From: Rhizobium leguminosarum
Lineage (GTDB): Bacteria; Pseudomonadota; Alphaproteobacteria; Rhizobiales; Rhizobiaceae
Direction of reading: 5' to 3'
Length of the DNA stretch: 64,000 nucleotides
Assembly: GCF_001679785.1 (NCBI RefSeq)
Contig: NZ_CP016286.1
Coordinates: 1,860,001-1,924,000, forward strand
How positions within the stretch are numbered: the stretch's first letter is position 1; each line of letters begins with the position of its first letter. Shown here piece after piece: positions 2,985-52,750 of this stretch. The notes under the pieces were generated by a model. It made no database searches. It was given only the letters and a program-made list of their open reading frames with translations, and was not told the DNA's origin. Both the position numbers and the translations under genes were made by a program.

Positions 2985-4118
2985 TCACTTCAAAAGCGCC
3001 TGCGCTTCTTCGATGCCGAGGGCGGCCGGTTGCGTGCAGGTTGTGGTCAGGTCGATGAAACGGCCCTCTTCGCCTGACTTTAGGATCGAGGTCATGACGT
3101 CGACGCCGTGCAGCGTGCGGTCGAGCGAGCAGCGCGCATCGCGGCCCTCGATCAGCGACATCGCCATGTCGGCCAAGCCGGCGGTGCGGTAGTTGGCGCG
3201 CGATCCGCTCGGGCTTTCCTGGTTGATCTTGCCGAATGGATGCTCCCAGGCATCGAGCGGCTTGATGTCCTTGTCACGGCCGCTTGCCTCGACCACGCCG
3301 CCGAAGAAGTTCGGATCCGGCACGTAGAGCGAGCCGTCGGTGCCGTAGAGTTCCATATTGGCATGGCGGTGCGACCACACGTCCCAGCTCGCCGTCAGCG
3401 TCACCGTGGCGCCGTTGACGAATTCGAGCAGCGCCTGGATCGTCGTCGGCGTCTTGACCGGGATGATTTCACCGTTGCGCGGCTGGCTGGTGATGGTGCG
3501 GGTCGGCGACGCCATCGAGGTCATGCCGCCGACACGTTTGACCGGGCCGATCAGGTTGATCAGGTTGGCGATGTAATAAGGGCCGAGATCAAGGATCGGG
3601 CCGCCGCCCGGCAGGAAGAAGAAATCCGGGTTCGGATGCCACATTTCCATGCCGGGGCTCATCACGTAGCAGGCGCCCGAGGTCACCCGGCCGATGCCGC
3701 CGTCGTCGATGAACTTGCGTGCGAGCTGATGGGCGCCGCCGAGGAACGTGTCGGGGGCGCAGCCGACGGCGAGGTTCTTTTCCTTGGCGATGCGACGAAG
3801 CTCCTCGCCCTCTTCGAGCGAAAGCACCAGCGGCTTTTCGGAATAGACGTGTTTTCCGGCCTCGAGGATCGCCTTCGATACCCGGAAATGCGCATCCGGG
3901 ATCGTCAGGTTGACAACAACGTCGATCTCGTCATTGACGAGAAGCTCGTCGATCGTCTGCGCTTTGACGCCATATTCCTTGGCGCGCGCCTCGGCCGCCT
4001 GCACGTTGATATCGGCGCAAGCCAGCACCTTCAGCCCCTTGAAGAGCGGTGCCAGCGAAAAGTAAGTGGTGGAGATGTTGCCACATCCGATGATGCCGAC
4101 GCCAAGTTCCCTGGTCAT
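2985..4118 (-). CDS. Gfo/Idh/MocA family oxidoreductase
   Basis: A 377-residue NAD(P)-dependent sugar or inositol dehydrogenase. The Rossmann motif VGIIGCGNIST is at residues 7-17, and the YSEKPL signature with the family lysine is near residue 95. The C-terminal alpha/beta domain is complete. It begins ten bases after the stop of the isomerase/epimerase gene, so the two are probably cotranscribed and act consecutively on an imported sugar. The exact substrate cannot be read from sequence. The ATG start has a TGAGGC ribosome site. Confidence 0.93.
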   Translation of the reverse strand: MTRELGVGIIGCGNISTTYFSLAPLFKGLKVLACADINVQAAEARAKEYGVKAQTIDELLVNDEIDVVVNLTIPDAHFRVSKAILEAGKHVYSEKPLVLSLEEGEELRRIAKEKNLAVGCAPDTFLGGAHQLARKFIDDGGIGRVTSGACYVMSPGMEMWHPNPDFFFLPGGGPILDLGPYYIANLINLIGPVKRVGGMTSMASPTRTITSQPRNGEIIPVKTPTTIQALLEFVNGATVTLTASWDVWSHRHANMELYGTDGSLYVPDPNFFGGVVEASGRDKDIKPLDAWEHPFGKINQESPSGSRANYRTAGLADMAMSLIEGRDARCSLDRTLHGVDVMTSILKSGEEGRFIDLTTTCTQPAALGIEEAQALLK

Positions 4119-4127
4119 GATGAAGCC

Positions 4128-4892
4128 TCAATAGGTCTGGAAGGATGCGATCGAGCGGCTGATATTGCGGTCGATGTCATTCGGGTTATCGTGTTCGACG
4201 ACGTAGTGCTTGGCCTTGGTGGCGCGCAATGCCGTCATCAGCCTGGCCCACTCAACCTTGCCGTGACCGACATCGGCCCAGCCGTCCTCGTCCTTCGCTT
4301 CGCCGGCCGGCGCGATGTCCTTGACGTGCACGGCGGTGATGCGGGACCCAAGCTTCTCGACCCAGACGAAGGGATCGGCGCCGCCGCGGATAACCCAGGC
4401 GATGTCGGCTTCCCAGGAAATATCGGGCGCGCCTTCGAAGATACGCTCGATCGGCCGCGAGCCGTCCTGCAGCTTGAAGAATTCGAAATCATGATTGTGC
4501 CAGCCGAATTCGTAGCCGGCAGCCTTGTAGGGCTTGGCTATCTCCTGCAGACGCTTGCCGAAGACGACCCAGCCGGCGGCGTCGGAGGGCCGCTGGTCAG
4601 CGGCCAGATGCGGCGCATAGATCGAATCCATGCCGAGAATCTTGGCAATGTTCAGCGACTTCTCGACTTCCTTCTCCAGAAAATCAGGGCTGAAATGGCC
4701 AGTCGCCATGACCAGGCCATTCTTGTCGAGGTCGGCGCGAAGGCTCTTCAGCCCGGCATCGTCGAGATCGGCATAGATGCCGCCGAAGCCCTCGACTTCG
4801 GCATAGCCAGCCTTGCCGAGCTTTTCGAAGATCGCCGAATAGGGCTGGAAGTTGCGGGCGCTATAGAGCTGGTAGCTGAGTTTCGTCATCAT
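4128..4892 (-). CDS. Sugar phosphate isomerase/epimerase (xylose isomerase-like TIM barrel)
   Basis: A 254-residue AP_endonuc_2/xylose-isomerase-like TIM barrel. It has the family's metal-site pattern: EVEGFGG near residue 40, the GWHNHDFEF segment with His and Glu, a W-E-x-D-I-A-W strand, and AVHVKDI near the C terminus. An AAGGAGAAC ribosome site supports the paired ATG codons at 4892/4889. It lies between the GH2 enzyme and the Gfo/Idh/MocA dehydrogenase, a pairing typical of sugar or inositol catabolic operons. The substrate is unknown. Confidence 0.9.
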   Translation of the reverse strand: MMTKLSYQLYSARNFQPYSAIFEKLGKAGYAEVEGFGGIYADLDDAGLKSLRADLDKNGLVMATGHFSPDFLEKEVEKSLNIAKILGMDSIYAPHLAADQRPSDAAGWVVFGKRLQEIAKPYKAAGYEFGWHNHDFEFFKLQDGSRPIERIFEGAPDISWEADIAWVIRGGADPFVWVEKLGSRITAVHVKDIAPAGEAKDEDGWADVGHGKVEWARLMTALRATKAKHYVVEHDNPNDIDRNISRSIASFQTY

Positions 4893-4926
4893 GTTCTCCT
4901 TGGGCCTCGTGCCCATTCTTGCAAGA

Positions 4927-7386
4927 TCAATCCGCCGACTGGCAGGAATACAGGTCGTAGAATCGGAACTCCGGAAGCGCGCCACGATCAAGCGGCCGTG
5001 CCGGGGTAAAGGTGATGCGGCGGCTCTCGCCGGCCGCAAGATCGAAGGCGTTGTCGGAATATTTGCCGTCTGTCTCGGTTTCGATCATCACGAAAAGCGC
5101 AAGTCCCCTAGCGGTGACGTTGATGTCGACGGAGCCATTCTCCTCAACATATTCGTGGGTGACTGTCAGCCCCGCAGGTTCCAGCTCCAGCGCCTTGTAG
5201 GTACCGTTGACATGGTGCCCCTCGCCGCCCGTGCCGTTCGATGCGGTGAAACGCCAGGCAAGCAACGTTCCCTCGGGAATATCGGAAACGTCGATGCTCG
5301 TGGCAGTGACGGCCGCATCCGGCGAACATATGGCCTGTACGTCTCTCAGGTGCCCGCGCTCGCCCTTCGTCGTCAGCAGCGATATCGAAAGGTCGACGCT
5401 GACATCGGCAAGCGTGTCGTTGACCAGCGAGAAGCGGATCGTCTTTCCGTCGTCGGAAGGAATGGCCGCGACCGCGACCGGCTGGAAGAAGCGCTTGACG
5501 AGATAGTGCATCGCCTTCCAGCGGCCGCCATAATCGAGGCTCGACCAGGAGGCGACCGGCCAGGTGTCGTTGAGCTGCCAGTAGATCGTGCCCATGCAAT
5601 GCGGTTTGAGCGACCGCCAGTATTCCACCGCCGTCTTGATCGCCAGCCCCTGCTGGATCTGAGAGAGATAGACGAAGTTCGGAAAATCCTTGGGAAATCG
5701 GAAATAACGGAACATCGTGCCGGCGATACGCTCGTTGCCGCCGGCATTCTTCTGGTGCAGCTCCATGACCGGGGAAGCGACGTTCATGTCTTTCGCCTCA
5801 GCATAGGTCTTGATCACAGGCAGCGACGTATAGGACTGGAAGCCGAATTCCGAGCAAAAGCGCGGACGCACCGAGCGGTAATTGTCGAACGACTTGTTCT
5901 CGTGCCAGACCGACCAGTAATGCATGTCGCCGGACCCGTCCGCATGCCAGGCATCGCCGAAATCGAGATAACCGGAAGCGGGGCTCGACGGCCACCACAG
6001 CGCGCCGGGCAGCGCCTTTTTCACTGCCTGCTCGATCGTGCGGTTGAGGCGATCATAGGAAACGAGATAGCGGTCGCGGTCCTTCCTCGATTCCTCGAAC
6101 CAGGTGAGCGCTCCGACCAGTTCGTTGTCGCCGCACCAGAGCACGATCGAGGGATGCGAGGAGAGCCGGCGCACCTGGTAATCGACCTCAATCGTCACAT
6201 TGTCGAGAAAGTCCTCGGTCGAGGGATAGAGGTTGCAGGCGAACATGAAGTCCTGCCAGACCATCAGGCCCAACCGGTCGCAGAGATCGTAGAAATGATC
6301 CTGCTCGTAGAAGCCGCCGCCCCAGACACGGATCATGTTCATGTTGGCGGCTTTGGCCGATTGCAGCAGGTCTTCGGTCTTCTCAGGCGAAGACAGCGAA
6401 AACAGCGCGTCGGCCGGGATCCAGTTGGCGCCGCGGCAGAAGATCTCGCGGCCGTTGACCTTGAAGGCGAAGCGGCTGCCTGATGCATCCGGCGTGGTGA
6501 TTAGCTCGACGCTGCGAAGACCGATCTGCTTGATCACCTCATCCGTCGGCAATTCGACGGAAAGCCTGTAGAGCGCCTGCTCGCCGCTGCCGGAGGGCCA
6601 CCAGAGGCGCGGATTGTCGATATGGAAGAGGTGGTTGACATGGGTCTCGCCATTGACGCCGACATCCAGGCGCACGCGCTCGCCATCGAGGTCGAAATAG
6701 ACCTGGGCAATATCTGGCCCCTTGGAAAACAGCGTCGCCGTCACTTTGAGATCGACCGAACCGTCATTATTGTGGGTCTGGCGGGTGACGACGTGTTCGA
6801 TGCGCGCCGTTTCGAGCTTTTTCAGCGCGATCGTCCCGTAAAGGCCGAGCGGGGCAATGGCAATGTTCCAGTCCCAGCCGAAATGGCACTGCGGCTTGCG
6901 CAGCATGTTGCCGTCGGGGATCGGCGAGTTGCCCGTGCTGTAGGGAATGTAGAAGGGCTGCTGCTTCTGTCGCGCAGCGCCGACAGCGATGTTGGAGGCA
7001 AAGACGATGCGGATGCTGTTGTCGCCTGATTTCAGCATGCTGGAGACATCGGGCCGGTAGCGGCGGAAGCTGTTGTCGGCTTCGAGCGCCAGAAAGCCGT
7101 TGACGTGGACGCTGGCGACCGTGTCGAGATAGTCGATATCGAGATACCAGTCGCCCTCGACCTCCTGAAGCGTGAAGCTGCGCTCGACCGCCCATTCGCG
7201 CTCGGCGACCCACTGCACCTTTTCCTCGTTGCGGCCGAAATAGGGATCGGGGATCAGCCCTGCCCGGTGAAGCGCCGTGTGCACGTCGCCCGGCAGCATG
7301 ATCGCGGTGCGGATCTCGCCGTCGACAGAGGCGAGCTGCCACGAACCGGAAAGGTCGATGTTGGGAGTAGTTGATCGATGCGTCAC
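4927..7386 (-). CDS. GH2 beta-mannosidase-type glycoside hydrolase
   Basis: An 819-residue glycoside hydrolase family 2 protein. It has an N-terminal jelly-roll sugar-binding domain, immunoglobulin-like domains and a TIM barrel. The WCGDNE segment (about residue 420) carries the expected acid/base Glu, and FCSEFGFQS (about residue 520) carries the nucleophile Glu. The opening pattern (SGSWQL, LPGDVHTAL, YFGRNE) is typical of bacterial and lysosomal beta-mannosidases. No signal peptide is seen. The first in-frame start is GTG at 7386. It sits downstream of the ABC transporter and probably hydrolyses imported beta-mannosides, although other beta-linked sugars are possible. Confidence 0.92.
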   Translation of the reverse strand: MTHRSTTPNIDLSGSWQLASVDGEIRTAIMLPGDVHTALHRAGLIPDPYFGRNEEKVQWVAEREWAVERSFTLQEVEGDWYLDIDYLDTVASVHVNGFLALEADNSFRRYRPDVSSMLKSGDNSIRIVFASNIAVGAARQKQQPFYIPYSTGNSPIPDGNMLRKPQCHFGWDWNIAIAPLGLYGTIALKKLETARIEHVVTRQTHNNDGSVDLKVTATLFSKGPDIAQVYFDLDGERVRLDVGVNGETHVNHLFHIDNPRLWWPSGSGEQALYRLSVELPTDEVIKQIGLRSVELITTPDASGSRFAFKVNGREIFCRGANWIPADALFSLSSPEKTEDLLQSAKAANMNMIRVWGGGFYEQDHFYDLCDRLGLMVWQDFMFACNLYPSTEDFLDNVTIEVDYQVRRLSSHPSIVLWCGDNELVGALTWFEESRKDRDRYLVSYDRLNRTIEQAVKKALPGALWWPSSPASGYLDFGDAWHADGSGDMHYWSVWHENKSFDNYRSVRPRFCSEFGFQSYTSLPVIKTYAEAKDMNVASPVMELHQKNAGGNERIAGTMFRYFRFPKDFPNFVYLSQIQQGLAIKTAVEYWRSLKPHCMGTIYWQLNDTWPVASWSSLDYGGRWKAMHYLVKRFFQPVAVAAIPSDDGKTIRFSLVNDTLADVSVDLSISLLTTKGERGHLRDVQAICSPDAAVTATSIDVSDIPEGTLLAWRFTASNGTGGEGHHVNGTYKALELEPAGLTVTHEYVEENGSVDINVTARGLALFVMIETETDGKYSDNAFDLAAGESRRITFTPARPLDRGALPEFRFYDLYSCQSAD

Positions 7387-7507
7387 GATATCGTTTCCGA
7401 TTTACGTTTTTGAAAAGGACGGCGTTTGGTCGTCGTCCGGTAGCTGTCGTTCGTTCAGGGGCCCTCCCGCCCACCCTCACTGTGCATGAGAGGCACTCAC
7501 CTCTCCT

Positions 7508-39660: not shown

Positions 39661-40080
39661 TCACGCTTTCTGCAACCCGCTGCGGGCAACTGCCGCCGTC
39701 GCATGTGCAGATTTGATCTTGGCGACAGCAAGCTCGGCATTCGGCCCCGCAGCGGCCAGCGCAGCTGCCTCGGAGACCCCATGGCAGCCGACGCGGGCAA
39801 AGACAATCGCGGAGGGATTCGCGAGCCGCGGCGTCTCCTCCTCCAGCCGCAGCGCGCCGAAGAACACGGCAGGCACGGAAAAATGCGCGGCAACGGCAAG
39901 GATCGCCGGCTCCAATCTTCGGCTGTCGATCGAGGCAATAGCTGTGAGTTCCGCCGCGCCGATAGCGGCTGCGTCGAGCGCCTCGATCGCAAGCGCCAGC
40001 ATCTCGGCAGGCGGCGTGCCGCGCTCGCAGCCGAGGCCGAGCACGTGGCGCCTCGCCGTATCGAAAGAGATATCGCTCAT
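39661..40080 (-). CDS. cobE: Cobalamin biosynthesis protein CobE
   Basis: A 139-residue protein of the CobE/GbiG (CbiG C-terminal) family. VLGLGCERGTPPAEML is the typical opening, and ASIDSRRLEPAILAVA follows. Its biochemical role in the aerobic pathway is unclear, but it is consistently found with cob genes. The preferred start is ATG 40080. It is divergent from the TauE/SafE-type gene and upstream of the nucleoside hydrolase. Confidence 0.9.
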   Translation of the reverse strand: MSDISFDTARRHVLGLGCERGTPPAEMLALAIEALDAAAIGAAELTAIASIDSRRLEPAILAVAAHFSVPAVFFGALRLEEETPRLANPSAIVFARVGCHGVSEAAALAAAGPNAELAVAKIKSAHATAAVARSGLQKA

Positions 40081-40139
40081 GGAAACCGTCAAATACGCCC
40101 TGCCCATGTCTTTGCAGACATTGCAGCTCGGGACGGCAA

Positions 40140-40967
40140 ATGCAACAAGGCCCTCCGAAATCCCTTGCCCGAAAGACCACCTTGCCCGATATCACATTCC
40201 ATCTGCTTCTGCTGCTCTGCGCGGCGGCTTTCTTTGCCGGGTTCGTCGATTCCATTGCCGGCGGCGGCGGCCTCATCACCGTCCCCGTCATGCTGATCGC
40301 AGGTTTTCCGCCGCTCCAGACCCTCGGCACCAACAAGGTGCAGTCCCTCTTCGGCGCGGCCTCGGCCACGATCGCCTATGCCCGCAAGGGCCATGTGCAG
40401 CTTGCGGAACAATTGCCGATGGCGCTGATGGCTGTCATGGGCGGTTCGCTCGGCGCGGCACTCGCCACGATCGTTCCAGGCCAGATGCTGCAGGCCATCA
40501 TGCCGGTGCTCCTGGTGGCGATCGCCATCTTCTTCGCCGTCAAGCCGAACCTCAACGACCTCGACACTTACCGCCGCATGACCCCCTTTACCTTCGGCCT
40601 GACCCTGGTGCCCATTATCGGCTTCTATGATGGCGTCTTCGGCCCCGGCACGGGCTCCTTCTTCATGCTGGCCTTCGTCACGCTCGCCGGCTTCGGCATG
40701 CTGAAGGCGACGGCCCACACCAAGCTTCTCAATCTTGGCTCGAATTTCGGCGCGCTGATCGTCTTCGCAAGCTTCGGCGCGATACTCTGGAAGATCGGCC
40801 TGTTGATGGGTGCTTGCCAGTTCCTCGGCGCGCAGCTGGGCTCGCGGCTAGCCATGCGCATCGGCGCAAAGCTCATCAAGCCGCTGCTCGTGATCGTCTG
40901 CGTCGCCCTTGCGGTAAAGCTGCTCGCCGACCCGGAAAATCCGCTGCGTGTCTGGCTCGGCGTCTGA
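40140..40967 (+). CDS. TauE/SafE (TSUP) family membrane transporter
   Basis: A permease of up to 275 residues with about eight hydrophobic segments and the family's two repeated glycine-rich motifs: GFVDSIAGGGGLITVP near the start and GFYDGVFGPGTGSFFM at mid-protein. A TTG at 40182 is a possible later start. TSUP proteins move sulfite, sulfonates or other anions. The location beside cobE raises the possibility of a role in cobalt or corrinoid physiology, but the sequence does not show it. Confidence 0.9.
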   Translation: MQQGPPKSLARKTTLPDITFHLLLLLCAAAFFAGFVDSIAGGGGLITVPVMLIAGFPPLQTLGTNKVQSLFGAASATIAYARKGHVQLAEQLPMALMAVMGGSLGAALATIVPGQMLQAIMPVLLVAIAIFFAVKPNLNDLDTYRRMTPFTFGLTLVPIIGFYDGVFGPGTGSFFMLAFVTLAGFGMLKATAHTKLLNLGSNFGALIVFASFGAILWKIGLLMGACQFLGAQLGSRLAMRIGAKLIKPLLVIVCVALAVKLLADPENPLRVWLGV

Positions 40968-41078
40968 CACGACCCCTCGACCCTCTTCCATTACCTCTGG
41001 CGTAATTGATAAGGTGCATCGCCTTCCCGCATGATCGGACTGCCTGGAACTGACGGGCGATCAAAAGGAGATGACCCG

Positions 41079-41444
41079 ATGAACGACGCAAACACCAACG
41101 CAGAGCGCTATCTCGCCATCTGGAACGAGACGGATGCCGCTCGCCGTCGCGCTCTCATCGCCGAGAGCTGGAGCAAAGCCGCGACCTATATCGACCCACT
41201 GATGCGCGGCGAAGGCCATGAGCAGATCAATTCGCTGGTCGAGGCGGTACAAAGCCGCTTCCCCGGCTTCCGCTTCGCCCTGATCGGGGCGGCCGACGGC
41301 TACGGCGACAACCTGCGCTTCTCCTGGGGCCTCGGCCCGGAAAACGGCGATGCGCTAATCAAGGGCACGGATTTCGCCGAGCTCGAAGGCGGCAAGCTGA
41401 AATCCGTCCGCGGTTTCATAGATTTGCTGCCGGAAGCCGCCTGA
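41079..41444 (+). CDS. NTF2-like (SnoaL-type) protein
   Basis: A 121-residue cone-fold protein (RYLAIWNETDAARRRALI, then SWSKAATYIDPLMRGEG) of the nuclear transport factor 2 superfamily. It may be a small enzyme or a ligand-binding protein. An AAAGGAG site supports the ATG at 41079. Its stop overlaps the ATG of the XRE regulator, so both are one unit. Confidence 0.82.
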   Translation: MNDANTNAERYLAIWNETDAARRRALIAESWSKAATYIDPLMRGEGHEQINSLVEAVQSRFPGFRFALIGAADGYGDNLRFSWGLGPENGDALIKGTDFAELEGGKLKSVRGFIDLLPEAA

Positions 41445-42238
41445 TGACGCCGACCGCCCGCTCCCTTGGAGACCATCTGCGCGAATGGCGCCAGCGCCGC
41501 CGCATGAGCCAGCTCGACCTCGCGCTGGAGGCAGAGATCTCGCAGCGGCATCTGAGCTTCATCGAGAGCGGGCGCTCGACACCGAGCCGCGACATGCTGC
41601 TGCATCTTGCCGAACGGCTCGACGTGCCCCTTCGCGATAGGAACCCGCTGCTGCTCGCGGCGGGTTTCGCTCCTGTTTTTGCCGAACGCGCGCTCGACGA
41701 TCCCGCATTGGAACCGGCCCGTCGCGCCATCGACATGGTGCTGAAAGGGCACGAGCCCTTCCCAGCAATCGCTGTCGACCGCCATTGGACACTCATCGCG
41801 GCCAATGCGGCCATCGCTCCGCTGCTCTCAGCCGTTGCCGACCAGTCTCTGCTCACGCCACCCGTCAACGTACTGCGCCTCAGCCTGCATCCACAAGGAT
41901 TGGCGCCCCATATCAAAAACCTTTCCGAGTGGCGCGCCCACCTTATCGGCAGGCTGCGCCAACAGCTCTCGGCTTCGGGCGATCCAATGTTGGACAAGCT
42001 TTTGAAGGAGTTGCTGTCCTATCCAACGCCTAAAACTGCTGGCGAGGTCCATACCGACTATGCCGGCATCGCCGTTCCCCTTCAGCTTTCGACCAAGGCC
42101 GGCTTGCTTTCCCTGATCTCGACAACGACTGTGTTCGGCACGCCTGTCGAAATCACTTTGTCGGAACTCGCGGTCGAATCCTTCTTCCCGGCAGATGAGG
42201 AAACGGCTGCCATCCTGCGCAGCCTCGCGCTCAACTGA
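41444..42238 (+). CDS. XRE family regulator with MmyB-like ligand-binding domain
   Basis: A 264-residue protein with an N-terminal Cro/C1 helix-turn-helix (RMSQLDLALEAEISQRHLSF, residues about 20-40). The C-terminal MmyB-like domain (about residues 100-260) often binds fatty acids or other hydrophobic ligands in actinobacterial relatives. It is coupled to the NTF2-like gene and probably regulates that pair. It converges with cobO. Confidence 0.88.
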   Translation: MTPTARSLGDHLREWRQRRRMSQLDLALEAEISQRHLSFIESGRSTPSRDMLLHLAERLDVPLRDRNPLLLAAGFAPVFAERALDDPALEPARRAIDMVLKGHEPFPAIAVDRHWTLIAANAAIAPLLSAVADQSLLTPPVNVLRLSLHPQGLAPHIKNLSEWRAHLIGRLRQQLSASGDPMLDKLLKELLSYPTPKTAGEVHTDYAGIAVPLQLSTKAGLLSLISTTTVFGTPVEITLSELAVESFFPADEETAAILRSLALN

Positions 42239-42242
42239 CGCC

Positions 42243-42878
42243 TCAGAACTCCACGCCCGGCTGGCCCTTGATGCCGGAGCGGAAGGGATGTTTGACGAGT
42301 TCCATCTCGGTCACCAGATCGGCGATTTCGATCAGTTCTTCCTTGGCGTTGCGCCCCGTCAGCACGACATGTGTCATGGCGGGCTTCTCGTTCTTCAGGA
42401 AAGTGACGACGTCGTTGATGTCGAGATAGTCGTAGCGTAGTGCGATGTTGATCTCGTCGAGCAGCACCATGGAATTGCGCTCGTCGCGGATCAGCTCCTT
42501 GGCCTTTTCCCAGGCGGCTGAGGCTGCGGCGACATCGCGGGCGCGGTCCTGCGTTTCCCAGGTGAAACCTTCTCCCATCGTGTGGAACTGGCAGAGATCG
42601 GAGAAATGCTTCTCGATCAGGTCACGCTCTCCGGTCCACATCGCACCCTTGATGAACTGCACGACGGCCGAAGGCTTGCCGTGGGCGATATGGCGGAAGA
42701 TCATCCCGAAGGCCGCCGAGGACTTGCCCTTGCCCTTGCCCGTATGAACGATGATCAGGCCCTTGCCATCGGTCTTGGTCGCCATGATCTTGTCGCGCGC
42801 GGCCTTCTTCTTCGCCATTTTCTCGGCGTGGCGCGCATCATCCTTGCCGGTTTCGTTTTCCGGGATCTCGTCACTCAT
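42243..42878 (-). CDS. cobO: Cob(I)yrinic acid a,c-diamide adenosyltransferase CobO
   Basis: A 211-residue CobA/CobO-type corrinoid adenosyltransferase that adds the 5'-deoxyadenosyl ligand. The P-loop is TGKGKGKSSAAFG (about residues 46-58), followed by VQFIKGAMWTGE and LLDEINIALRYDY. It starts three bases after the cobN stop and is the last gene of the riboswitch-led cobP-cobW-cobN-cobO operon. Confidence 0.96.
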   Translation of the reverse strand: MSDEIPENETGKDDARHAEKMAKKKAARDKIMATKTDGKGLIIVHTGKGKGKSSAAFGMIFRHIAHGKPSAVVQFIKGAMWTGERDLIEKHFSDLCQFHTMGEGFTWETQDRARDVAAASAAWEKAKELIRDERNSMVLLDEINIALRYDYLDINDVVTFLKNEKPAMTHVVLTGRNAKEELIEIADLVTEMELVKHPFRSGIKGQPGVEF

Positions 42879-42881
42879 AGC

Positions 42882-45800
42882 TCACCTCATTCTGTTGTTT
42901 GCAGCCAGATGGAACCGGGCCGAATTGCTGCGCGGCGTCCAGAGGCTGCGGTCGATCGCCTCGCACAGCCGCTCTCTCATTTCGTCGAATGCCGCAGGGT
43001 TCTTCTCGATCATGAAGTCGCGCACGCCGGCATCGGCGACAAAGGCTTGGTAGACGGCCTCGAAATGATGTTCGCCGACTGCGCCCGTCGTCGCCGAAAA
43101 GGCGAAGAGATAATCGACCGTAGCAGCGATCTCGGCAGCGCCCTTGTAGCCGTGGCGCATGACACCCGATATCCATTTCGGATTGACGACGCGCCCGCGC
43201 ACGACCCGGCCGATCTCCTCTTCCAGCGAACGGATCACCGGCTTTTCCGGCCTGGAATGGTCGTTGTGATAGATCTCGGGACGCGCACCAGTGAGCTGTC
43301 CGGCCGCCGCCGCCATGCCGCCCTCGAACTGGTAATAATCGTCGCTGTCGAGCAGATCGTGCTCGCGATTGTCCTGGTTCTGAATGACGGCCTGCACCGA
43401 GCGCAGCCGCTCCTCGAACAGACCGCGTTCGGCCTTGCCCTCCTCGCCGGCGCCATAGGCATAGCTGCCCCAGACGAGATAGGCCTCGGCAAGATCGGCG
43501 CGCCGCTCCCAGCCCTTCTCGTCGATCAGCGCCTGCAGGCCGGCGCCGTAAGCGCCGGGCTTCGAGCCGAAGACGCGGTAGCCCGCCCGCCGCGCTGCCG
43601 TCTTCTCGTCGAGACCCGCAGCCGCAAGCCGCGCCGCCTCGCCGCGCATGCGCTCGGCAATGGGATTGTCGGCAACATCCTCCTCCAGCGCGCCGACGGC
43701 GCGGATCGCCTTGTCGAACAGTGCGATCTGCTCGGGAAAGGCATCGCGGAAGAAGCCGGAAATGCGGAGCGTCACGTCGACGCGCGGCCGCCCGAGCATC
43801 GCCGGCGGAATGATCTCGTAGCCGGTGACCCGGCGCGAGCTCATGTCCCAGAGCGGCTTGACGCCGATCAGCGCCAGGGCCTGGGCGATATCGTCGCCGC
43901 CGGTGCGCATGTTCGAAGTGCCCCAGGCCGTCAGCCCGAAGGAGACAGGCCATTCGCCGTGATCCTGCACATAGCGGCGGATAAGCAGTTCCGCCGATTT
44001 CTTGCCGAGTTCGTAGGCGGCCGGCGTCGGGACGGCGCGGCTGTCGACCGAATAGAAATTCCGCCCGGTCGGCAGCACATCGGGCCGCCCGCGCGTCGGC
44101 GCGCCGGAAGGGCCGGGCGCCACGAAGCGGCCGTCGAGGCCTTTGAGCAGGCCGGCGATTTCGGCCGGGCCGGAGGCGAGGATGGAGGGCTTAAGACGGG
44201 TTTCGATCTCGGAGAGTACCGATCTGGCTTGGGACCAGAGGGTTGGACAATCCATCTCGCCGGAAACGAACTTCGCCGAGAGTAGTTCGATGCGCTCGAC
44301 GGTGTCTCCATTGGTTCGCCATGGAGCATCGAGGATATCGGCGAGAATCTCAGGTCGCGGGCCGGTCCAAACGGCGGCCATGTCACAATCGAGAGGGTCG
44401 AAGATGGAGGCCCCCCCTCTGTCCTGCCGGACATCTCCCCCACAAGGGGGGAGATCGAGGATGAGAGGCCCCGCTCAATCTCATGCTTCGAAGGTGCGGC
44501 ATCTTCAAACGGTTCTTTTTCGGGAAGCCCAAGCGACTTGCCGATCTCCCCCCTTGTGGGGGAGATGTCCGGCAGGACAGAGGGGGGTATCCCCCGCATG
44601 CCGCCGCCCAAGCCCGCATCCGCCGCGATCGCCCGCTGCAAGCTCGCATCCCCACCCTCACCCAGCCCGCGCGGCACCCGCGCCAGCGCCACGGTCAGGT
44701 CCGTCAGCAGCCGCCCCTCTGGCGACACACCGAACACATGCAGTCCATCGCGGATCTGCATTTCCTTGAGGTCGCAGAGATAGGCGTCGAGCTTCTTCAG
44801 AGCCTCGCCCTCGCTTTCGCCCTTCGCAATCCCGGCATCCCGGTCGAGGCCGATATCGGTCACGAGATCGAGGATCTGACGGCTGAGCAGACGAATGCGG
44901 CGGGGATCGCCGCCGGAGGCCTCGTAATATTCGTCGACCAGTGCCTCCAGATCCTTCAATGGCCCGTAGCTCTCCGCCCGCGTCAGCGGCGGTGTCAGGT
45001 GATCAATAATGACGGCACTGGCCCTGCGCTTGGCCTGCGTGCCCTCGCCCGGATCGTTGACGATGAAAGGATAGAGGTGCGGCAGCGGCCCGAGAATCGC
45101 TTCCGGATAACATGTCTCCGACAGCGCCAGCGACTTGCCGGGCAGCCATTCGAGATTGCCGTGTTTGCCCATGTGGATGACGGCATGAGCGCCGAATTTC
45201 TCGCGCAGAAAAGCATAGAAGGCGAGATAACCGTGCAGCGGCACGAGATCCGGCGAATGGTAGCTCTCCTTCGGATCGATATTGTAGCCGCGCGCCGGCT
45301 GGATGCCGACGAGCACCTCGCCGAAACGGGCGAACGGCAGAGCGAAGACGCCCTCGCGAAAATACGGATCGTCTTGCGGGCTGCCCCAGCGGGCTCTCAC
45401 CTCATCCTGAATCTTATTGGGAAGAGATTCCAGGAAGCTGTTGTAGCGACTCAGGGAAAGTGTCTCGCGAATGATCTTTCCGTCGGAACCGGAATTGGTC
45501 GGCCCTTCCATCAGGTGGCGGATCAGCGCATCGCCATCGGCGGGAATCTCGGCGACCGGATAACCCGCCGCCCGCATAGCCTTCAGCACCTCGATGGTGC
45601 CTTCAGGCGTATCCAAGCCGACGCCGTTGCCAAGCCGACCGTCGCGGTTCGGATAATTCGCCATGACGAGCGCGATGCGCCGGTTGTGCGCTGACGTCTT
45701 CCGCAGCCGTGCCCAATTGGCGGCAAGCTCCGCCGTATAGTGCACCCGGCCGGCATCGGCCTGGCTGGCGACGATATTGGTCTCGACGGCAGCATCGTAG

Positions 45801-47068
45801 CGCGCCGCCGTCTTGAACGAGATCGCCCGCGCCAGCACCCGGCCGTCGACCTCGGGCAGCGCCACGTTCATGCCGAGATCGCGCGCCGACAGGCCTTGTG
45901 AGGAAGAGAGCCATGCCTCCCTCGACGAGGCCGACAGGATCGCCTGCAGCACGATCGCCTCATTCGCCTCCAGCACCGTCGGCTGCCGGTCTGCACCTGG
46001 CGCGGAGACGGCAAAGCCCGTCGTGTTGATGACGACATCGGGTTTCAGCGTCGAAAACACGCTTTCGAGAATGCCTGTGGAAACCGGATCCTTGAGGCTA
46101 TAGGCAAAGACCGGCAGCGGCCGGAGGCCGAGTGTCGTCAGCGCCCCGACTAGAGCTTCGATCGGCCCGGTCTCGCCGCTTTGGACGAGGGCGCGGTAGA
46201 AGCTGATGGCGACTGTCGGGGGTTCAAATCCCTCCTCCGCTACCATTACCCGCACACCCCCCTCTGTCCTGCCGGACATCTCCCCCACAAGGGGGGAGAT
46301 CAGGGATGAGAGGCCTCGTTCCATCTCCTCGGACGAAAGTGCGGCATCCTCCGACGTTTCGTTTGTGGGAAGCCTCAGCGACTTGCCAATCTCCCCCCTT
46401 GTGGGGGAGATGTCCGGCAGGACAGAGGGGGGTATCTCGAGCTCTGCGGATAAGGCGGGCACCACACCCGAAGACACCGCGGCAACAGCAACCCGCCGCC
46501 ACTCCTCAACCCCGATCAACCCCCGCCCCGGCCACCAAATACCTGCCTTCATCAGCGGCACAGCCGGCGCCGGCTTCTCGGCGCCCGACAGCATCGCCTC
46601 GGCATAGTCAAGAAAAGCCTGCGCGTTGGCATCGCCGCCCTCGATCAGATAGGCCCAGAGCGCATTGAGATCGTCGAGATCAACATTGGAGAAAGGCACA
46701 AGCCCCGCATCCGGCCTGGCATCGCCCGGCAAGACCGCAATCAGTGCACCGGCGCGGGCCGCAGCCGCATGCAGCGCTTCCAGCGCATAGTGGAAATAGC
46801 TGGCACCGCCGAGAGCGCGCACGATAATCAGCTTGGCATGCCGCACCGTGCGCTCGACATAGGTATCAACAGACATCGGGTGCTTGAGGCTCATCAGGCT
46901 GGCGAGTCTCAGCGAAGGTGCCGCCCCGCGCTCGCGATGGGCGGTTGCGATCGCGGCAAGCTCGCTGTCGGCCGCCGACAGGAACAGGATATCGCCCGGC
47001 GTCTGCCCGAAGTCGATTGCCTCCTCGCCGTCGCTGATCGTTCCCTGTTGAACCAGAAGCAGATGCAT
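42882..47068 (-). CDS. cobN: Cobaltochelatase large subunit CobN, interrupted by two repeats and one frame change
   Basis: CobN is the large, corrin- and cobalt-binding subunit of the ATP-dependent cobaltochelatase (with CobS and CobT). From 47068 one frame reads typical CobN sequence (FYRALVQSGETGPIEAL, VHMGKHGNLEWLPGK, GEGTQAKRRASAVIID) down to about 44590. From about 44410 to 42882 a second frame continues it (DMAAVWTGPRPEILADIL, then YQFEGGMAAAAGQL). Two RIME-like repeats lie inside: one at 46255-46433, read through in frame with a tRNA-like tail, and one at 44411-44588, where the reading frames disagree. Removing both inserts leaves about 1,250 residues, the normal family size. The gene is either truncated, frameshifted during translation, or affected by a base error. 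Confidence 0.9.
44411..44588. repeat. RIME-like mosaic palindromic element, copy A (inside cobN)
   Basis: The outer arms CCCCCCTCTGTCCTGCCGGA... and its inverse TCCGGCAGGACAGAGGGGGG flank inner ACATCTCCCCC/GGGGGAGAT palindromes and a unique centre. The sequence strongly resembles Rhizobium intergenic mosaic elements, but it sits in coding sequence. This copy has seven C in its first arm where copies B and C have six. Confidence 0.9.
46214..46245 (+). other. tRNA 3'-end fragment (T arm, acceptor strand and CCA) inside cobN
   Basis: The plus strand reads a T arm GGGGG-TTCAAAT-CCCTC, then acceptor strand CTCCGCT, discriminator A and CCA. This fits the 3' end of a rhizobial tRNA, most like elongator tRNA-Met from memory. 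No D arm, anticodon arm or 5' acceptor strand precedes it. Read on the minus strand it encodes VAEEGFEPPT, the well-known peptide of antisense tRNA ends. Confidence 0.75.
46255..46433. repeat. RIME-like mosaic palindromic element, copy B (inside cobN)
   Basis: The same 45-base palindromic arms and a related centre as copy A. It is translated in frame within CobN as [17 protein letters not shown]...[12 protein letters not shown], adding about 60 residues, and abuts the tRNA-like fragment at 46214-46245. Confidence 0.92.
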
Positions 47069-47072
47069 CCGT

Positions 47073-48122
47073 CTATGCCAGCGCTTCGATCGCCGCCCTT
47101 ACCGCGTCCTGATCCATTTCGCGCAGGCCGATAACGACAAGGCGCGTGGCGCGCTTTTCGCTCGCGCCCCAAGCACGGTCGAAATAATGGTCGATACGGC
47201 TGCCGACGGCCTGGAGCTGCAGCCGCATCGGCTTGTCCGAGACATCGACGAAACCCTTGAGGCGCAGCACATCATGGGCTGAAATAACAGTCTTCAGCGA
47301 CTCAATGAAGCCGGCGGGATCGGCGACCGGGCCGAGCTCGACGACGAAGCTGTCAAATTCGTCATGGTCGTGCGGCGCACCGTCCTCCTGCTCCAGCTCG
47401 TGATGCGACTTGCGATTGGCAACATCGTCCTCCGTGCCGATGCCCAGGCCGAGCAGGATGCCGGCCGACACCTCCCCGTTCCGTGCCTCGATCATCACGG
47501 GCTTGCGCACCGTACGGGAGGCGACCTCGTCGCGCACCCTGATGAGGCCGGCAGCGTCGATCAGGTCGGTCTTGTTGAGCACGATGAGATCGGCGCAGGT
47601 CAGCTGATCCTCGAACAACTCCTCGATCGGGCTCTCGTGATCGAGCGACTCATCCTCGGCGCGGCGCGCGTCGACGGCATTATGGTCATCGGCGAAACGA
47701 CCGGCGGCAACGGCAGCACTATCGACCACCGTGATGACGCCGTCGACGGTCACCTGGGTGCGAATGTCGGGCCAGTTGAAGGCGGCGACCAGCGGCTGCG
47801 GCAGGGCAAGGCCAGAAGTCTCGATGACGATATGGTCGGGCCTCTGCTCGCGCTCGAGCAGCTTCGTCATCGTCGGAATGAAATCGTCCGCAACCGTGCA
47901 GCATATGCAGCCATTGGTGAGCTCGATGATGTCGTCCTCGGTGCAATTCTCCGCACCGCAGCCCTTCAGCACGTCGCCGTCGACGCCGAGATCGCCGAAT
48001 TCGTTGATGATCAACGCAATCTTCTTGCCACCGGCATTGGTGAGCAGGTTGCGGATCATCGTCGTCTTGCCGGCGCCGAGGAAGCCGGTGATGACGGTTG
48101 CGGGAATCTTCTGCTGGTTCAT
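47073..48122 (-). CDS. cobW: CobW, GTPase associated with cobaltochelation
   Basis: A 349-residue G3E-family GTPase. Walker A GFLGAGKTT is at residues 14-22, the metal-binding CICC motif of the COG0523 family is in LTNGCICCTV, and NKTD is the guanine-specificity motif. The CobW_C domain is at the C terminus. CobW is thought to deliver cobalt to CobNST. It lies between cobP and cobN with four-base gaps. Confidence 0.95.
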   Translation of the reverse strand: MNQQKIPATVITGFLGAGKTTMIRNLLTNAGGKKIALIINEFGDLGVDGDVLKGCGAENCTEDDIIELTNGCICCTVADDFIPTMTKLLEREQRPDHIVIETSGLALPQPLVAAFNWPDIRTQVTVDGVITVVDSAAVAAGRFADDHNAVDARRAEDESLDHESPIEELFEDQLTCADLIVLNKTDLIDAAGLIRVRDEVASRTVRKPVMIEARNGEVSAGILLGLGIGTEDDVANRKSHHELEQEDGAPHDHDEFDSFVVELGPVADPAGFIESLKTVISAHDVLRLKGFVDVSDKPMRLQLQAVGSRIDHYFDRAWGASEKRATRLVVIGLREMDQDAVRAAIEALA

Positions 48123-48126
48123 GGAC

Positions 48127-48636
48127 TTAACCCTTCATTTTCAGCGGCAGGCCTGCCGCGATGAAATAGACTTCAGCGGCCTTCGCCGCGATCGATTGGT
48201 GCAGCCGGCCGGCATGATCGCGAAAATCCCGCGCCATGCGATTGTCCGGCACGATGCCGAGACCCACCTCGTTGGAAACGAAAACGAGCCGCGCTTTCGC
48301 GGCGGGAAGGAAATCGGCAAGGGCGGCAAATTCCGTCGCCATATCGCGCTCCTCGATCATCAGATTGGTGACCCAGAGCGTCAGGCAATCGATGAGGACG
48401 ATGCGCCCCTCGCCGTCGATGGCGGTAAGCTTGCCGACGAGGTCGAGCGGCTCTTCATGCGTCGTCCAGGACGGACCACGATCGGCCTGGTGTTGGGCGA
48501 TGCGCGCCTGCATCTCCTCGTCCCAGGCGCGGCCGGTCGCGACATAGTGACGGTCGAGGCCGGTCGCGGTGACAAGGGCTTCGGCGAAGCGCGACTTGCC
48601 GGAGCGCGCGCCGCCCAGGATGAAGGTGGCGGTCAT
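48127..48636 (-). CDS. cobP: Adenosylcobinamide kinase/guanylyltransferase CobP (CobU)
   Basis: A 169-residue bifunctional enzyme that phosphorylates adenosylcobinamide and adds GMP. It opens with the P-loop [15 protein letters not shown] and has [28 protein letters not shown] and [21 protein letters not shown] site supports the ATG at 48636; the longer open frame upstream is repeat copy C, not protein. It is the first gene after the cobalamin riboswitch. Confidence 0.95.
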
Positions 48637-48713
48637 ATTCAAACGCCCCTCAGGGAGGGTGCGTAGCCGTGGCTTGCTCCGAGTGCATCTGTCTCGGTTA
48701 CTGAGGGTGTGAC

Positions 48714-48864
48714 ACCCCCCTCTGTCCTGCCGGACATCTCCCCCACAAGGGGGGAGATTGAATCGCCGAGAGCTTTTCTCCAAACAATTGATGTAGGACG
48801 ACGGTCGTGCTGCTTGCCGATCTCCCTCCTTGTGGGGGAGATGTCCGGCAGGACAGAGGGGGGT
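48714..48864. repeat. RIME-like mosaic palindromic element, copy C (riboswitch leader)
   Basis: It has the same outer arms (CCCCCCTCTGTCCTGCCGGA / TCCGGCAGGACAGAGGGGGG) as copies A and B but a different, shorter centre. It lies in the untranslated leader between the riboswitch and cobP. Confidence 0.92.
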
Positions 48865-49030
48865 ACCCAGCATTCGACATAAGCGGCCGAAAACACTCCT
48901 CCTGCAGCGCTGCTTGGAGGCGTGGCGTGCGCCGCACCAGGCCGCGCTGAATTCAATCGTTCAGCCAAGACAACCTCCGTGCTGGCAACGGGCATAGTGC
49001 CCAGGTGTGGGCTTCTCGCCCGGCACGCAT

Positions 49031-49380
49031 GGCAGGTCTCCTGGCTCGCGGTTATCGGCCGCGATCGGGGCAGACCGGAAACCGGTCGCCCTGATCGTGC
49101 CAGCGGATCATCCTCGCCTTCCCGGCTGCATCAGTGAAAAGGTGGACGATTCGTAGACTTGAGAGGCGTCCGACCCCGGTTGATCACCATGCATATCCAG
49201 TGGCTTTTCCGGCATGTCGTCCATCCCGCCCGCTTGCACTATTGCAAGCCGTCAGCCGAAAGGCCTGATGCCGGATGGAAGACCCTGACCGCTCTACAGT
49301 CGCGGGGTCGGCTGTGATGAAGGCGCCCGGCTTGGGTCCGCCCCGTCACATTCCCTTTTCATCCGGAGGGGCGCAACACC
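49031..49380 (-). ncRNA. Cobalamin (B12) riboswitch
   Basis: On the minus strand the B12 box GAGCCAGGAGACCTGCC (49047-49031) is preceded by CCGGGAAGG (49125-49117), CACTG, CCCCGCGACTGT (49307-49296), GAAAAGGGAA (49360-49351) and the 5' GGTG...GCGCC element (about 49380). All are conserved parts of the AdoCbl riboswitch. About 170 bases separate the CCCCGCGACTGT and CCGGGAAGG parts, longer than usual. It should repress cobP-cobW-cobN-cobO when cobalamin is plentiful. Confidence 0.93.
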
Positions 49381-49388
49381 GATCCGGA

Positions 49389-49438
49389 ACCATCCGTTAT
49401 GTCAGGATGGTCAGTCGACCATCCGTTATCCGGATGGT
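49389..49438. promoter_or_regulatory. Two tandem dyads upstream of the riboswitch
   Basis: ACCATCC-N9-GGATGGT (49389-49411) and ACCATCCG-TTATC-CGGATGGT (49418-49438) lie side by side, with their left half-sites 29 bases apart. They sit just 5' of the riboswitch, where the cob operon promoter should be, and 230 bases before the ClC gene. They may be operators or small hairpins. The rest of 49439-49668 is AT-rich and shows no gene. Confidence 0.6.
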
Positions 49439-49668
49439 TAGGCAAGCGCAGGGATGAAGTCAACCGGCCTTGGCGGCCGCCCAATCGCCAGTTCACAGGC
49501 GTGGCTACCAAAACACGACTTACCCCACCTAAAATATCGTCATTTATCAGAGACTTACGTCATCAAAATTTATTCCAACCGCCGGTTTTTCGCCGCAATT
49601 GCATCGCAAGCGGACTGTACGACCATCTCCGCCCTTGACCGGGCCTCTCCCCGCCTAGTTGTCTAGCC

Positions 49669-51459
49669 ATGCTTATGAAATTGGATCGGCGCCGTTTCCG
49701 CGCGCTGCGTGTTTTCTTCGATCCGGGACGCCTGCGGGCGCTGACCCGGCGCAGCGAGGTCGGCCTGTCGCTGGCGGGCGCCGTCGTCGGCATCATCTCG
49801 GGCCTCGCCGTCACCGGCATGAGCTATGTCTCCAATGAGTTGCATCAGCTGGTCTTCGGCATCGCCGACAGCGAACGGTTGAGCTCGTCCGAGATCGAGA
49901 GCAAGCTGCTGCTGCTCACCGCCCCCGTCATCGGCGGCGCCCTGCTCGGCCTGCTGCTTTTCGTGCTGGCGAAACGGCGCAAGAAACCGATGGTCGACCC
50001 GATCGAGGCCAATGCGTTGCATGGCGGCCGCCTGTCCCTGACCGACAGCATTATCGTTGCCGTCCAAAACCTGATCTCCAACGGTTTCGGCGCCTCCGTC
50101 GGCCTGGAGGCTGGGTATACCCAGCTTGCCGCCGGCCTCGCCTCAAAATTCGGCCTGAAGCTGCAGCTTCGCCGCTCGGACCTGCGCACCCTCGTTGGCT
50201 GCGGCGCGGCGGGCGCCATCGCCGCCGCCTTCAACGCGCCGTTGACCGGGGCCTTCTATGCTTTCGAGCTGATCATCGGCACCTATACGATCGTCTCGCT
50301 GACGCCTGTCGTCGTCTCCGCCCTTGTCTCCACCTTGGTCGCAAGGCTGCTCGCCGGCAGCGATTTCACCATCGATATCGGCAGCTTCGGCTCGGTCGTG
50401 CCGGCCGATTATGTCCCGGCGCTGCTGCTCGGTGCGTTCTGCGCCGGCGTCGGCATCCTGATCATGCAGGGCGTCGCCTTTGTCGAGGAACTGGCGCGCA
50501 AGAGCTCGATCGCCCCACCCTTCCGCCCGGCACTCGGCGGCATCATCGTCGGCCTCTTGGCGATGATCTCGCCGCAGGTGCTCTCGGCCGGCCACGGCGC
50601 GCTGCATCTCAACCTTTCCCATGAGGTGGCGATCCCAACGCTGATCGGCCTCTTCCTTTTGAAATCCTTCGCCTCGGCGATCTCGATCGGCTCCGGCTTC
50701 AGGGGCGGGCTGTTCTTCGCCTCGCTGTTCATGGGCGCCCTGCTCGGCAAACTCTTCGCCTATTGCGGCCCCTATTTCGCCGATGCGACGCTGACGCCCG
50801 TCATCTATGCCGTTGTCGGCATGAGTTCGCTTGCCGTCGCCGTCATCGGCGGGCCGCTGACCATGACGTTCCTGGCGCTCGAAATCACCGGCGATTTCCC
50901 GATCACGGCGCTGGTCCTCGCCGCCGTCATCACCTCCTCGCTCGTCGTGAGTTCGACCTTCGGCTACTCCTTCGCCACATGGCGCTTTCATCTTCGCGGC
51001 GAAAGCATCCGCAGCGCCCATGATGTCGGCTGGATCCGCAATCTGACGGTCGACAAGCTGATGCGCGCCGACGTCAAGACGGCAAGGGCGGGCATTTCTC
51101 TGGAGGAATTCAAGCAGGCCTTCCCGATCGGCTCGACCCAGCGCGTCATTCTCGTCAAGGAGAGCGACAAATATGCGGGCCTCGTGCTGGTGCCGGAGAT
51201 CTACGCCAATCCGACCGATGCGCAGGACGAGGGCAAGACGCTTGCCGATTTCATCCACTACCGCATTGATTTCCTGCAGCCGCAGATGAATGCCAGGCAG
51301 GCGGCGGCGATCTTCGACAAGAGCGAAAGCGAAGCACTTGCCGTCGTCAACAACCTGATCGAACGCAAGGTGATCGGCCAGCTGAGTGAAAGCTATACGC
51401 TGCGCCGCTACAGCGAAGAACTCGACCGCCGCCGCCGTGAAGTGTCAGGCGAGATCTAA
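49669..51459 (+). CDS. ClC family chloride channel/transporter with CBS domains
   Basis: A 596-residue membrane protein with a ClC core (about residues 20-440) and a tandem CBS pair at the C terminus (VDKLMRADVKTARAG onward). SVGLEAGYTQ corresponds to the family's GREGP filter and keeps the gating Glu. GSGFRGGLFFASLF stands at the GxFxP position. IGGPLTMTFLALEITGDF is a conserved late helix. It probably exchanges anions for protons; ion selectivity cannot be read here. It is divergent from the cob riboswitch. Confidence 0.93.
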   Translation: MLMKLDRRRFRALRVFFDPGRLRALTRRSEVGLSLAGAVVGIISGLAVTGMSYVSNELHQLVFGIADSERLSSSEIESKLLLLTAPVIGGALLGLLLFVLAKRRKKPMVDPIEANALHGGRLSLTDSIIVAVQNLISNGFGASVGLEAGYTQLAAGLASKFGLKLQLRRSDLRTLVGCGAAGAIAAAFNAPLTGAFYAFELIIGTYTIVSLTPVVVSALVSTLVARLLAGSDFTIDIGSFGSVVPADYVPALLLGAFCAGVGILIMQGVAFVEELARKSSIAPPFRPALGGIIVGLLAMISPQVLSAGHGALHLNLSHEVAIPTLIGLFLLKSFASAISIGSGFRGGLFFASLFMGALLGKLFAYCGPYFADATLTPVIYAVVGMSSLAVAVIGGPLTMTFLALEITGDFPITALVLAAVITSSLVVSSTFGYSFATWRFHLRGESIRSAHDVGWIRNLTVDKLMRADVKTARAGISLEEFKQAFPIGSTQRVILVKESDKYAGLVLVPEIYANPTDAQDEGKTLADFIHYRIDFLQPQMNARQAAAIFDKSESEALAVVNNLIERKVIGQLSESYTLRRYSEELDRRRREVSGEI

Positions 51460-51487
51460 GCACCGTCGCGCCGATCGGATCGACGCT

Positions 51488-52750
51488 TCAGGATACGGCG
51501 TCGGCGAGTTTGAACACCTCTGCCCGTTTCGAAACGCCACGCAATTCAAACGAACCCAGGTACTCGCAGGCCACGGCGCAAGTGGCCGCGAAGCTCTCCG
51601 ACATCAGCAGGTCCTGCTCAAGCGTGCCGCAGAGCTTTTCAAGCCGCGAGGCCTCGTTGACGGCGCTGCCGATGACCGTGAAATCAAGCCTGCCGCGCGC
51701 CCCGATATTTCCATAGAAGACCTCGCCGAGATGCAGCACGACATCGACGCCGATGTCAGGACCTCCACCGTTCCTCCGCTGACCGTTCAGCACCTTGTTG
51801 GCTTCCAGAATATTCCTTGCAGAAGCCAGTGCAGCCATGCACGCCTTTTGCTGGTCTTCGGCATCGGTCGGAAAGATCGCCAGCACGCTGTCGCCCATGA
51901 ACTTGAGGATCTCGCCGGAATTCTCCTCGACATGCCGGCCGATCAGCTCGAAATGCTCGTCCAGAAACCCGGCGATTTCGCCTGGCTGATAGACTTCGGT
52001 CAACGCCGTGAAATTCCTGAGATCCGCAAGCAGGATCGCAGCATTGATCGAGCCACCCTTTCCTCTCTGGATCTCGCCTGCAAGGATGCGTGCGCTTGTT
52101 TTGGCACCCGTGTAGACGGCGAGGATATCCGCAGCGGTTTTCGATGCCGCGATGCGGTAGCAAGCCAGCCCCAGCGCCGGGAAGAGCTTCGCGACGATCG
52201 CCAATTGGTCGTCAGAAAATCCGCCCGGCCTGTCGCTTGTGAGAGACAGACTGACCCCGCGCAGCGCAGCCTCCTTTGGGAATTCCAGCAGGCTGACCAG
52301 GTGATCCGTGCCGCCGCCATGCGCGAATTCCGCAAGCTGCGGATAGTCATCGACACCCTCACCCTTGGCGATGTTCCATCGACCTGACGTTTCGCCACGG
52401 CCCAAAAGAAAATAGATCGGCGTCTTCTCGAAATTCAGGACTGCCGCACTGCCATATTCGGCATTCTCGATCGTGGTTGCACCGCCGCGCAAGAAATTGG
52501 CCGAGACGCCGCCATACATGGGATGAATAGACGGCATCGCAATACTTCCCCGCCAGATCGGAAAGCCATCCGCGATCAGCCGATCGCACAATCCGGCTAT
52601 CAGCTCGCCAATATGCTCAGCTGTGATTCCATGTTCTATAAGCCACTGAATATTATTGTTAATTTCCGAACCTCCAAATGACCGACGCAGTTTATGGTCG
52701 GAAATCGGGCAAATGGACGGCGATGACCAACCGGGGCGTTGCCACATCAA
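51488..52750 (-). CDS. Class III adenylate/guanylate cyclase
   Basis: A 420-residue protein with an unrecognised N-terminal sensory half and a C-terminal class III cyclase domain from about residue 240. ILLADLRNFTALTE gives the first metal-binding Asp, KFMGDSVLAIFP the second metal segment, and LDFTVIGSAVNEASRLE the transition-state Asn and Arg. It should make cAMP in the cytoplasm in response to an unknown signal. Rhizobia commonly carry many such cyclases. Confidence 0.93.
   Translation of the reverse strand: MMWQRPGWSSPSICPISDHKLRRSFGGSEINNNIQWLIEHGITAEHIGELIAGLCDRLIADGFPIWRGSIAMPSIHPMYGGVSANFLRGGATTIENAEYGSAAVLNFEKTPIYFLLGRGETSGRWNIAKGEGVDDYPQLAEFAHGGGTDHLVSLLEFPKEAALRGVSLSLTSDRPGGFSDDQLAIVAKLFPALGLACYRIAASKTAADILAVYTGAKTSARILAGEIQRGKGGSINAAILLADLRNFTALTEVYQPGEIAGFLDEHFELIGRHVEENSGEILKFMGDSVLAIFPTDAEDQQKACMAALASARNILEANKVLNGQRRNGGGPDIGVDVVLHLGEVFYGNIGARGRLDFTVIGSAVNEASRLEKLCGTLEQDLLMSESFAATCAVACEYLGSFELRGVSKRAEVFKLADAVS

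Follow-up and report, generated by a model that had tools for sequence, protein, structure and literature searches.

Known palindromic elements inside genes

Among the described systems in which palindromic repeats lie inside bacterial genes, the Rickettsia palindromic elements (RPEs) come closest to the case reported here. RPEs form in-frame fusions with genes and similar events may have happened in other prokaryotes (PMC10969869), and RPEs, ERIC and other elements have been found in frame, with the dinucleotide TA at their ends (PMC2229807). The present work concerns a locus of Rhizobium leguminosarum in which two copies (A and B) of a palindromic element, termed R1, lie inside cobN, the gene for CobN, a large and conserved enzyme that inserts cobalt in the synthesis of vitamin B12, in a stretch of 64,000 nucleotides (the window; C1:1860001-1924000 of a genome of eight contigs and 8.57 Mb). 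Like the RPEs, R1 is palindromic and of similar size, occurs within genes as well as between them, reads open in frame and is tolerated in conserved enzymes (PMC10969869, PMC2229807). It appears to work as RPEs do, the likeness being one of described behaviour. The two cases differ in that the host here is a free-living member of the Rhizobiaceae, and in that two positions of one protein have been reused by several repeat families, with tRNA ends present at one of them.

Repetitive extragenic palindromes (REPs) of the GTAG and CGTC families are likewise found inside open reading frames (ORFs) of several species, and two Xanthomonas species have REPs at roughly one site of recB, a different one in each (PMC3733652). 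The elements described here exceed these in size, copies A and B having arms of 45-46 nt, and a search of the genome for the Y1 transposase (PF01797), which was positive in 5 of 14 control genomes, gave no match; other transposases were not sought. The Rhizobium-specific intergenic mosaic element (RIME), to which the original prediction for this stretch had likened the copies, is presumably also related in kind, being palindromic, mostly intergenic and from the same host group, a likeness by description. RIME is mentioned once in the available text of PMC5498481. A further parallel is provided by tRNA attachment sites, since the tRNA fragments described below likewise extend from the T arm as far as CCA, but the fragment here is inside a protein gene and is translated. 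The attachment cores of integrated elements often span this same region of the tRNA. In Sinorhizobium meliloti, prophages and islands are often integrated in tRNA genes (PMC11476347). A literature search, most subscription journals being outside it, revealed no paper that describes palindromes or tRNA ends within the cobN of rhizobia.

Two variable sites in CobN

Eighty cobN loci were fetched, of which 76 gave CobN frames longer than 1150 residues; the four left out comprise one with a frame break (L033) and three from stretches that begin near or inside cobN (L006, L043, and L058). In the alignment of the 76 proteins, internal length variation of more than 8 residues was observed at two places only, sites A and B, each of which varied by 0-103 residues. 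Elsewhere in CobN the internal variation was at most 8 residues, and the C-terminal end varied by up to 19. The distance between the flanks, empty sites included, was a multiple of three in 72 of 74 loci at site A (the exceptions being L033 and L025) and in 70 of 71 at site B (exception L005). The frame of L033 is truly broken at A; the ORF of L025 is open, its exception reflecting a slip of the anchor.

With the window added (77 rows), the sequence at each site was assigned to repeat families by its alignment scores to reference units. A threshold of 28 was used, the F3 and R1 references cross-matching at 22-26 and shuffled linkers reaching at most 18.5; sequences of under 80 nt without a family match were classed as none, and longer ones without a match as other. 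Site A contained R1 in 32 rows, R1+F2 in 8, F2 in 7, F3 in 2, R1+F3 in 1, other in 2, and none in 25. The corresponding numbers for site B were R1 24, F3 6, R1+F3 3, R1+F2 1, other 4, and none 39. Members of three repeat families are thus present at the sites, in different lineages. Site A is therefore occupied in 52 of the 77 rows (50 by family match and two by long sequences without one) and site B in 38 (34 and four, respectively), and the insertions are common to related strains. The nearest named cobN loci are those of Rhizobium laguerreae FB206 (L001), R. leguminosarum (L002 and L003), and R. sophorae (L004).

Many CobN homologues are without these segments (e.g., L040, L041, L042, L064, and L080), and the solved CobN 9uk9 could be aligned end to end with the insert-free protein of L077. 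The inserts are thus not an ancient part of CobN, and their presence in many independent records rules out an artefact of assembly. The original prediction, which had placed two palindromes inside cobN with copy B translated in frame, was right on both counts and understated the case. Its interpretation was correct in kind, but it missed that A and B are recurrent landing sites for several repeat families and that the 3′ end of a tRNA-Met lies beside copy B.

Predicted structure and selection

In an AlphaFold2 model of residues 1-993 of the L001 CobN, based on 58 sequences, both inserts (residues 208-275 and 819-882) had predicted local distance difference test (pLDDT) scores below 50, with blocks at 25-33, compared with 75-90 for the adjoining folded blocks (mean for the model 68.7; predicted template modelling score, pTM, 0.69). 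The ratio of nonsynonymous to synonymous substitutions (dN/dS) for the core between the two sites was 0.07-0.13 in all 10 pairs; for insert A it was 0.77-1.31 in eight of 10 pairs. This difference between insert and core indicates that the frame is kept and that the peptide is nearly free.

The reading frame of cobN in the window

A search with PF02514 gave two matches in the genome, both at this locus, which thus contains its single cobN, on the minus strand and starting at 47068. The features of this region are listed in Table 1. The original prediction had stated that the remainder of the gene reads as standard CobN. TIGR02257 (NCBIfam) does match both parts, at profile positions 193-729 for the N-terminal part (the best of two stretches) and 739-1218 of 1226 for the C-terminal part, but there is no single open frame and the break at copy A had been missed. 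Between fixed flanks, site A measures 257 bp in the window and 258 bp in L001, and because of this one missing base cobN of the window is present as two overlapping ORFs. As the inserts carry runs of G/C, slippage and sequencing error are both possible at cobN frame breaks, and the one-base difference at copy A may be due to mutation or to an error in sequencing a run of G. The R1 insert at site A lies within an open cobN frame in L001, L003, and L004.

Table 1. Features of the cobN region, with positions in the window.
Feature	Position	Strand	Remarks
cobN C-terminal ORF, 499 aa	42882..44381	-	Frame different from that of the N-terminal part
cobN N-terminal ORF	43931..47068	-	CobN as far as copy A, out of frame beyond it
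Copy A of R1, 176 bp	44412..44587		Inside cobN; frame changes across the copy
tRNA-Met(CAT) 3′ end, exact 32-nt copy, to CCA	46214..46245	+	Antisense to cobN, beside copy B
Copy B of R1, 178 bp	46256..46433		Inside cobN; in frame
Copy C of the element	48714..48864		Upstream of the next cob gene; centre unlike A and B

Further breaks of the cobN frame were found in three relatives, L005 and L192 (both at B) and L033 (at A). In each of them the two frames overlap across the insert, and slippage, gene fission or sequencing error may be responsible. In L005 the overlapping frames are at 3306-4055 and 3952-7497.

The palindromic element R1

The arms of copy A (44412-44457 and 44542-44587) and of copy B (46256-46300 and 46389-46433) are 100% complementary, terminal inverted repeats are present in the element, and the two copies show 88% identity over 180 nt. 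Copy B folded as RNA has an energy of -137.4 kcal/mol (z = -13.3 against 200 shuffles), and this together with the dispersal of the element in the genome shows that the palindromes are not due to chance. Over their 88-bp centres, A and B show 76% identity, in agreement with the earlier claim that the two share most of this region, and the other copies of the genome that were compared are without that centre (19 copies, 48-69% identity to the A and B centres, the maximum for shuffles being 69%). Because this centre is private to A and B, one of them has probably seeded the other inside cobN. The centre of copy B is inverted in L003 and L007, yet the frame is open.

In 21 copies (18 places of the genome and the three window copies), 58 of 126 frames were open, compared with a mean of 37.9 and a maximum of 51 in 200 shuffles; the copies being related, this excess represents one property of the arms and not 21 tests. 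In the 80 cobN loci, 74 of 114 arms had the dinucleotide TA directly outside them, as did 15 of 41 arms in stretches from the genome of the window, and TA was absent from the eight commonest dinucleotides that precede 1139 control C runs. No target consensus beyond TA was found at the element ends, and as TA is its own reverse complement the end of the repeat and a target duplication are indistinguishable. Copy C has a cobalamin riboswitch (RF00174, 50.8 bits, minus strand, 49014-49409) on one side and the next cob gene downstream on the other; this riboswitch was the sole Rfam match over 40000-52000.

Occurrence of the element outside cobN

R1 is dispersed in the genome of the window, where 75 matching stretches, from the 40 of 52 first-look candidates that were scored, merged to 32 places. 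The three window copies and the other 29 places, which were fetched, were read, and 11 of the 29 are partial matches of less than 70 nt. As had been anticipated, the copies of this genome lie mostly outside genes, the element occurring between genes as well as in frame within conserved genes. ORFs were read at six places, and copy B of cobN and a copy in ribD were recognized by the equal frame of their flanks and by homology; copy A of cobN is intragenic and frame-broken. The ribD copy (L140, 2291-3598; element at C1:765771-765964) has the same frame on both sides and the protein matches TIGR00326 with 293.6 bits. In the 30 best-matching of 60 genomes, RibD has one internal length-variable site (1-99 residues), at which R1 arms could be read by eye in 17 of the 30. 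The flanks in L149 also have equal frames, but this copy is placed between two ORFs and was not accepted as intragenic.

Of 25 genomes searched at the peptide level, 12 contained matches (E up to 1e-6), and the long stop-free frames, as judged by length or place, include cobN and ribD in several genomes. Fourteen frames were read in 12 stretches fetched from relatives. One of these is FtsY (L184, 1966-3621; TIGR00064), in which an in-frame element is present N-terminal of the signal recognition particle (SRP) GTPase domains, and another, L192, is cobN; frames other than those of cobN and FtsY were taken, with no search of a family library, as antisense or upstream of the likely start. The F2 family is also dispersed in the genome of the window, with 26 matching stretches.

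tRNA 3′ ends at site B

The tRNA fragment beside copy B matches the tRNA-Met(CAT) gene at C1:3210452-3210528, and as protein it reads EEGFEPPT. When up to two mismatches were allowed, a 28-nt portion of the fragment occurred at only two places of the genome, in cobN and in this tRNA-Met gene. A general tRNA 3′-end pattern matched the genome 41 times, 37 of the matches being tRNA genes and the other four lying in cobN and at C1:1028472, C1:2561740, and C2:1142803. The match at C1:2561740 resembles a duplicate of the tRNA(CAT) end at C1:2550130, 11.6 kb away (span C1:2550130-2561764), an arrangement that suggests an integrated element.

When the 77 rows were scored against the tRNA ends of the genome of the window, site B reached a score of at least 20 in 20 rows and at least 17 in 25, and site A did not reach 17 in any. 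The highest score among shuffles (1540 per site) was 16 and that among reversed tRNA ends 17; in an earlier run with slightly longer stretches one shuffle scored 19. The closest tRNA is Met in the window, L066, L074, L057, L055, L002, L030, and L016, with the 3′ end exact over 32 nt in the window and L066. In L024, L013, L019, L025, L027, and L021 it is a second CAT tRNA, assigned to Met by ARAGORN, which we take to be perhaps tRNA-Ile2. The closest tRNA in L004 (27/27 nt), L017, and L003 is Ser, L028 has a Gly-like end, and Arg-like ends are present in L018 and, in the sense orientation, in L014. Over the 26 nt searched, the L074 copy is identical to a second place in its own genome.

The matching gene, taken from its sequence to be tRNA-Met, has TTCGAAT in Ensifer (three genomes) and TTCAAAT in Rhizobium (five genomes) and in one genome from a further member of the Rhizobiales. 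The CobN copies mirror the base of their genus, all three from Ensifer having G and all five Met-type copies from Rhizobium having CAAAT, the latter being complete in two (the window and L066).

Origin of the insertions

Our preferred explanation, to which we would assign a probability of roughly 0.8, is that the CobN linkers tolerate insertions, which are nearly neutral and pass through a filter for frame. In the CobN of Rhizobiaceae, the folded parts would be joined by two linkers that are disordered and tolerant of changes in length. Miniature palindromic elements, which are scattered in the genomes, would land, presumably by transposition, in many places, and the survivors within genes would be the insertions that keep the frame where the fold is indifferent to them. 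In the window both linkers would have been hit by the same element family, the seeding of one site from the other probably occurring through recombination inside cobN. The frame is under purifying selection and the insert peptide is probably without a sequence-specific role. The present variety may then be the product of subsequent exchange and deletion, of centres that flipped between their inverted arms, and of replacement by other families.

A number of points weigh against this explanation. The AlphaFold2 model is a middling one, about half of its 264 residues with pLDDT below 50 being outside the inserts. Two of the insert A pairs have low dN/dS (0.35 and 0.12), and the values for insert B (three pairs) are 0.52-1.09. 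Insert dS (0.065-0.191) is also below that of the core (0.243-0.504), so the inserts are not simply old neutral sequence and homogenization or recent replacement is likely. The class changes required, at least 22 at A and at least 25 at B, speak for the explanation but were counted on a quick tree of the CobN core, in which 20 of 74 branches are open, and since strains that exchange cobN alleles would add to their number they are not clean counts of insertion; the class threshold, too, was chosen after the scores were seen. A strict coding threshold (codon score 15 on both flanks) flagged none of the genome's copies as intragenic, and neither transposition nor a dated target duplication was demonstrated, nor was a transposase.

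The reuse of the same two positions by R1, F2, and F3, the mosaics (e.g., R1+F2 at A in eight rows), and the private centre of A and B could also mean that insertion into the CobN and RibD sites is targeted, an insertion enzyme or recombination between resident repeats directing new elements there. We regard this as unlikely, as unrelated families would need an identical target and no consensus beyond TA was found; a filter on positions that tolerate insertion is simpler, and the disorder of the linkers, together with the RibD and FtsY cases, explains the sites more simply. The occupation of site A in most lineages and of B in many, the two pairs with low dN/dS, and the insert dS below that of the core would be in keeping with inserts that are functional and kept because extra linkers alter the assembly, activity or regulation of CobN. 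However, many relatives are without inserts, dN/dS is about 1 in most pairs, and different families and orientations, and hence different peptides, occupy the same place, which makes a function very improbable. Lower still is the probability that cobN of the window is a decaying pseudogene and the inserts its debris. Its two parts are in different frames and there is no second cobN, but the gene is otherwise open, with matches to TIGR02257 throughout, and because the same inserts lie in the open frames of L001, L003, and L004, they preceded any decay.

The preferred explanation of the palindromes, as insertions into tolerant linkers, does not in itself account for the tRNA ends, for which our reading is a tentative one. 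Site B may have been repeatedly written on by tRNA genes, through an active process that places the 3′ ends of Met, second CAT, Ser, Gly-like, and Arg-like tRNAs into the same translated linker. The candidate routes, neither of them shown, are tRNA-directed integrases acting at attachment sites and DNA copies joined at breaks. It is also possible, though slightly less likely, that all these ends descend instead from one ancient capture altered by drift and allele exchange, and the several decayed tRNA-Met ends (L002, L016, and L030) and the same orientation and nearly the same place of most fragments are consistent with this. Against a single origin are the exact copies of different tRNA ends (Met over 32 nt in the window and L066, and Ser over 27 nt in L004) and the sense copy of L014. 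The mirroring of the genus-specific base in the CobN copies likewise argues for repeated capture or conversion, since one ancient capture followed by drift does not easily give genus-matched bases.

Significance

Two positions of one conserved enzyme have thus taken up many different in-frame insertions, and both the tolerance of its linkers and the conversion of selfish palindromes to protein can be read from comparative data. These observations extend protein-coding palindromes to free-living rhizobia. With the tRNA 3′ ends, new protein sequence at a fixed position has a further origin, and these ends may be the weightier finding.

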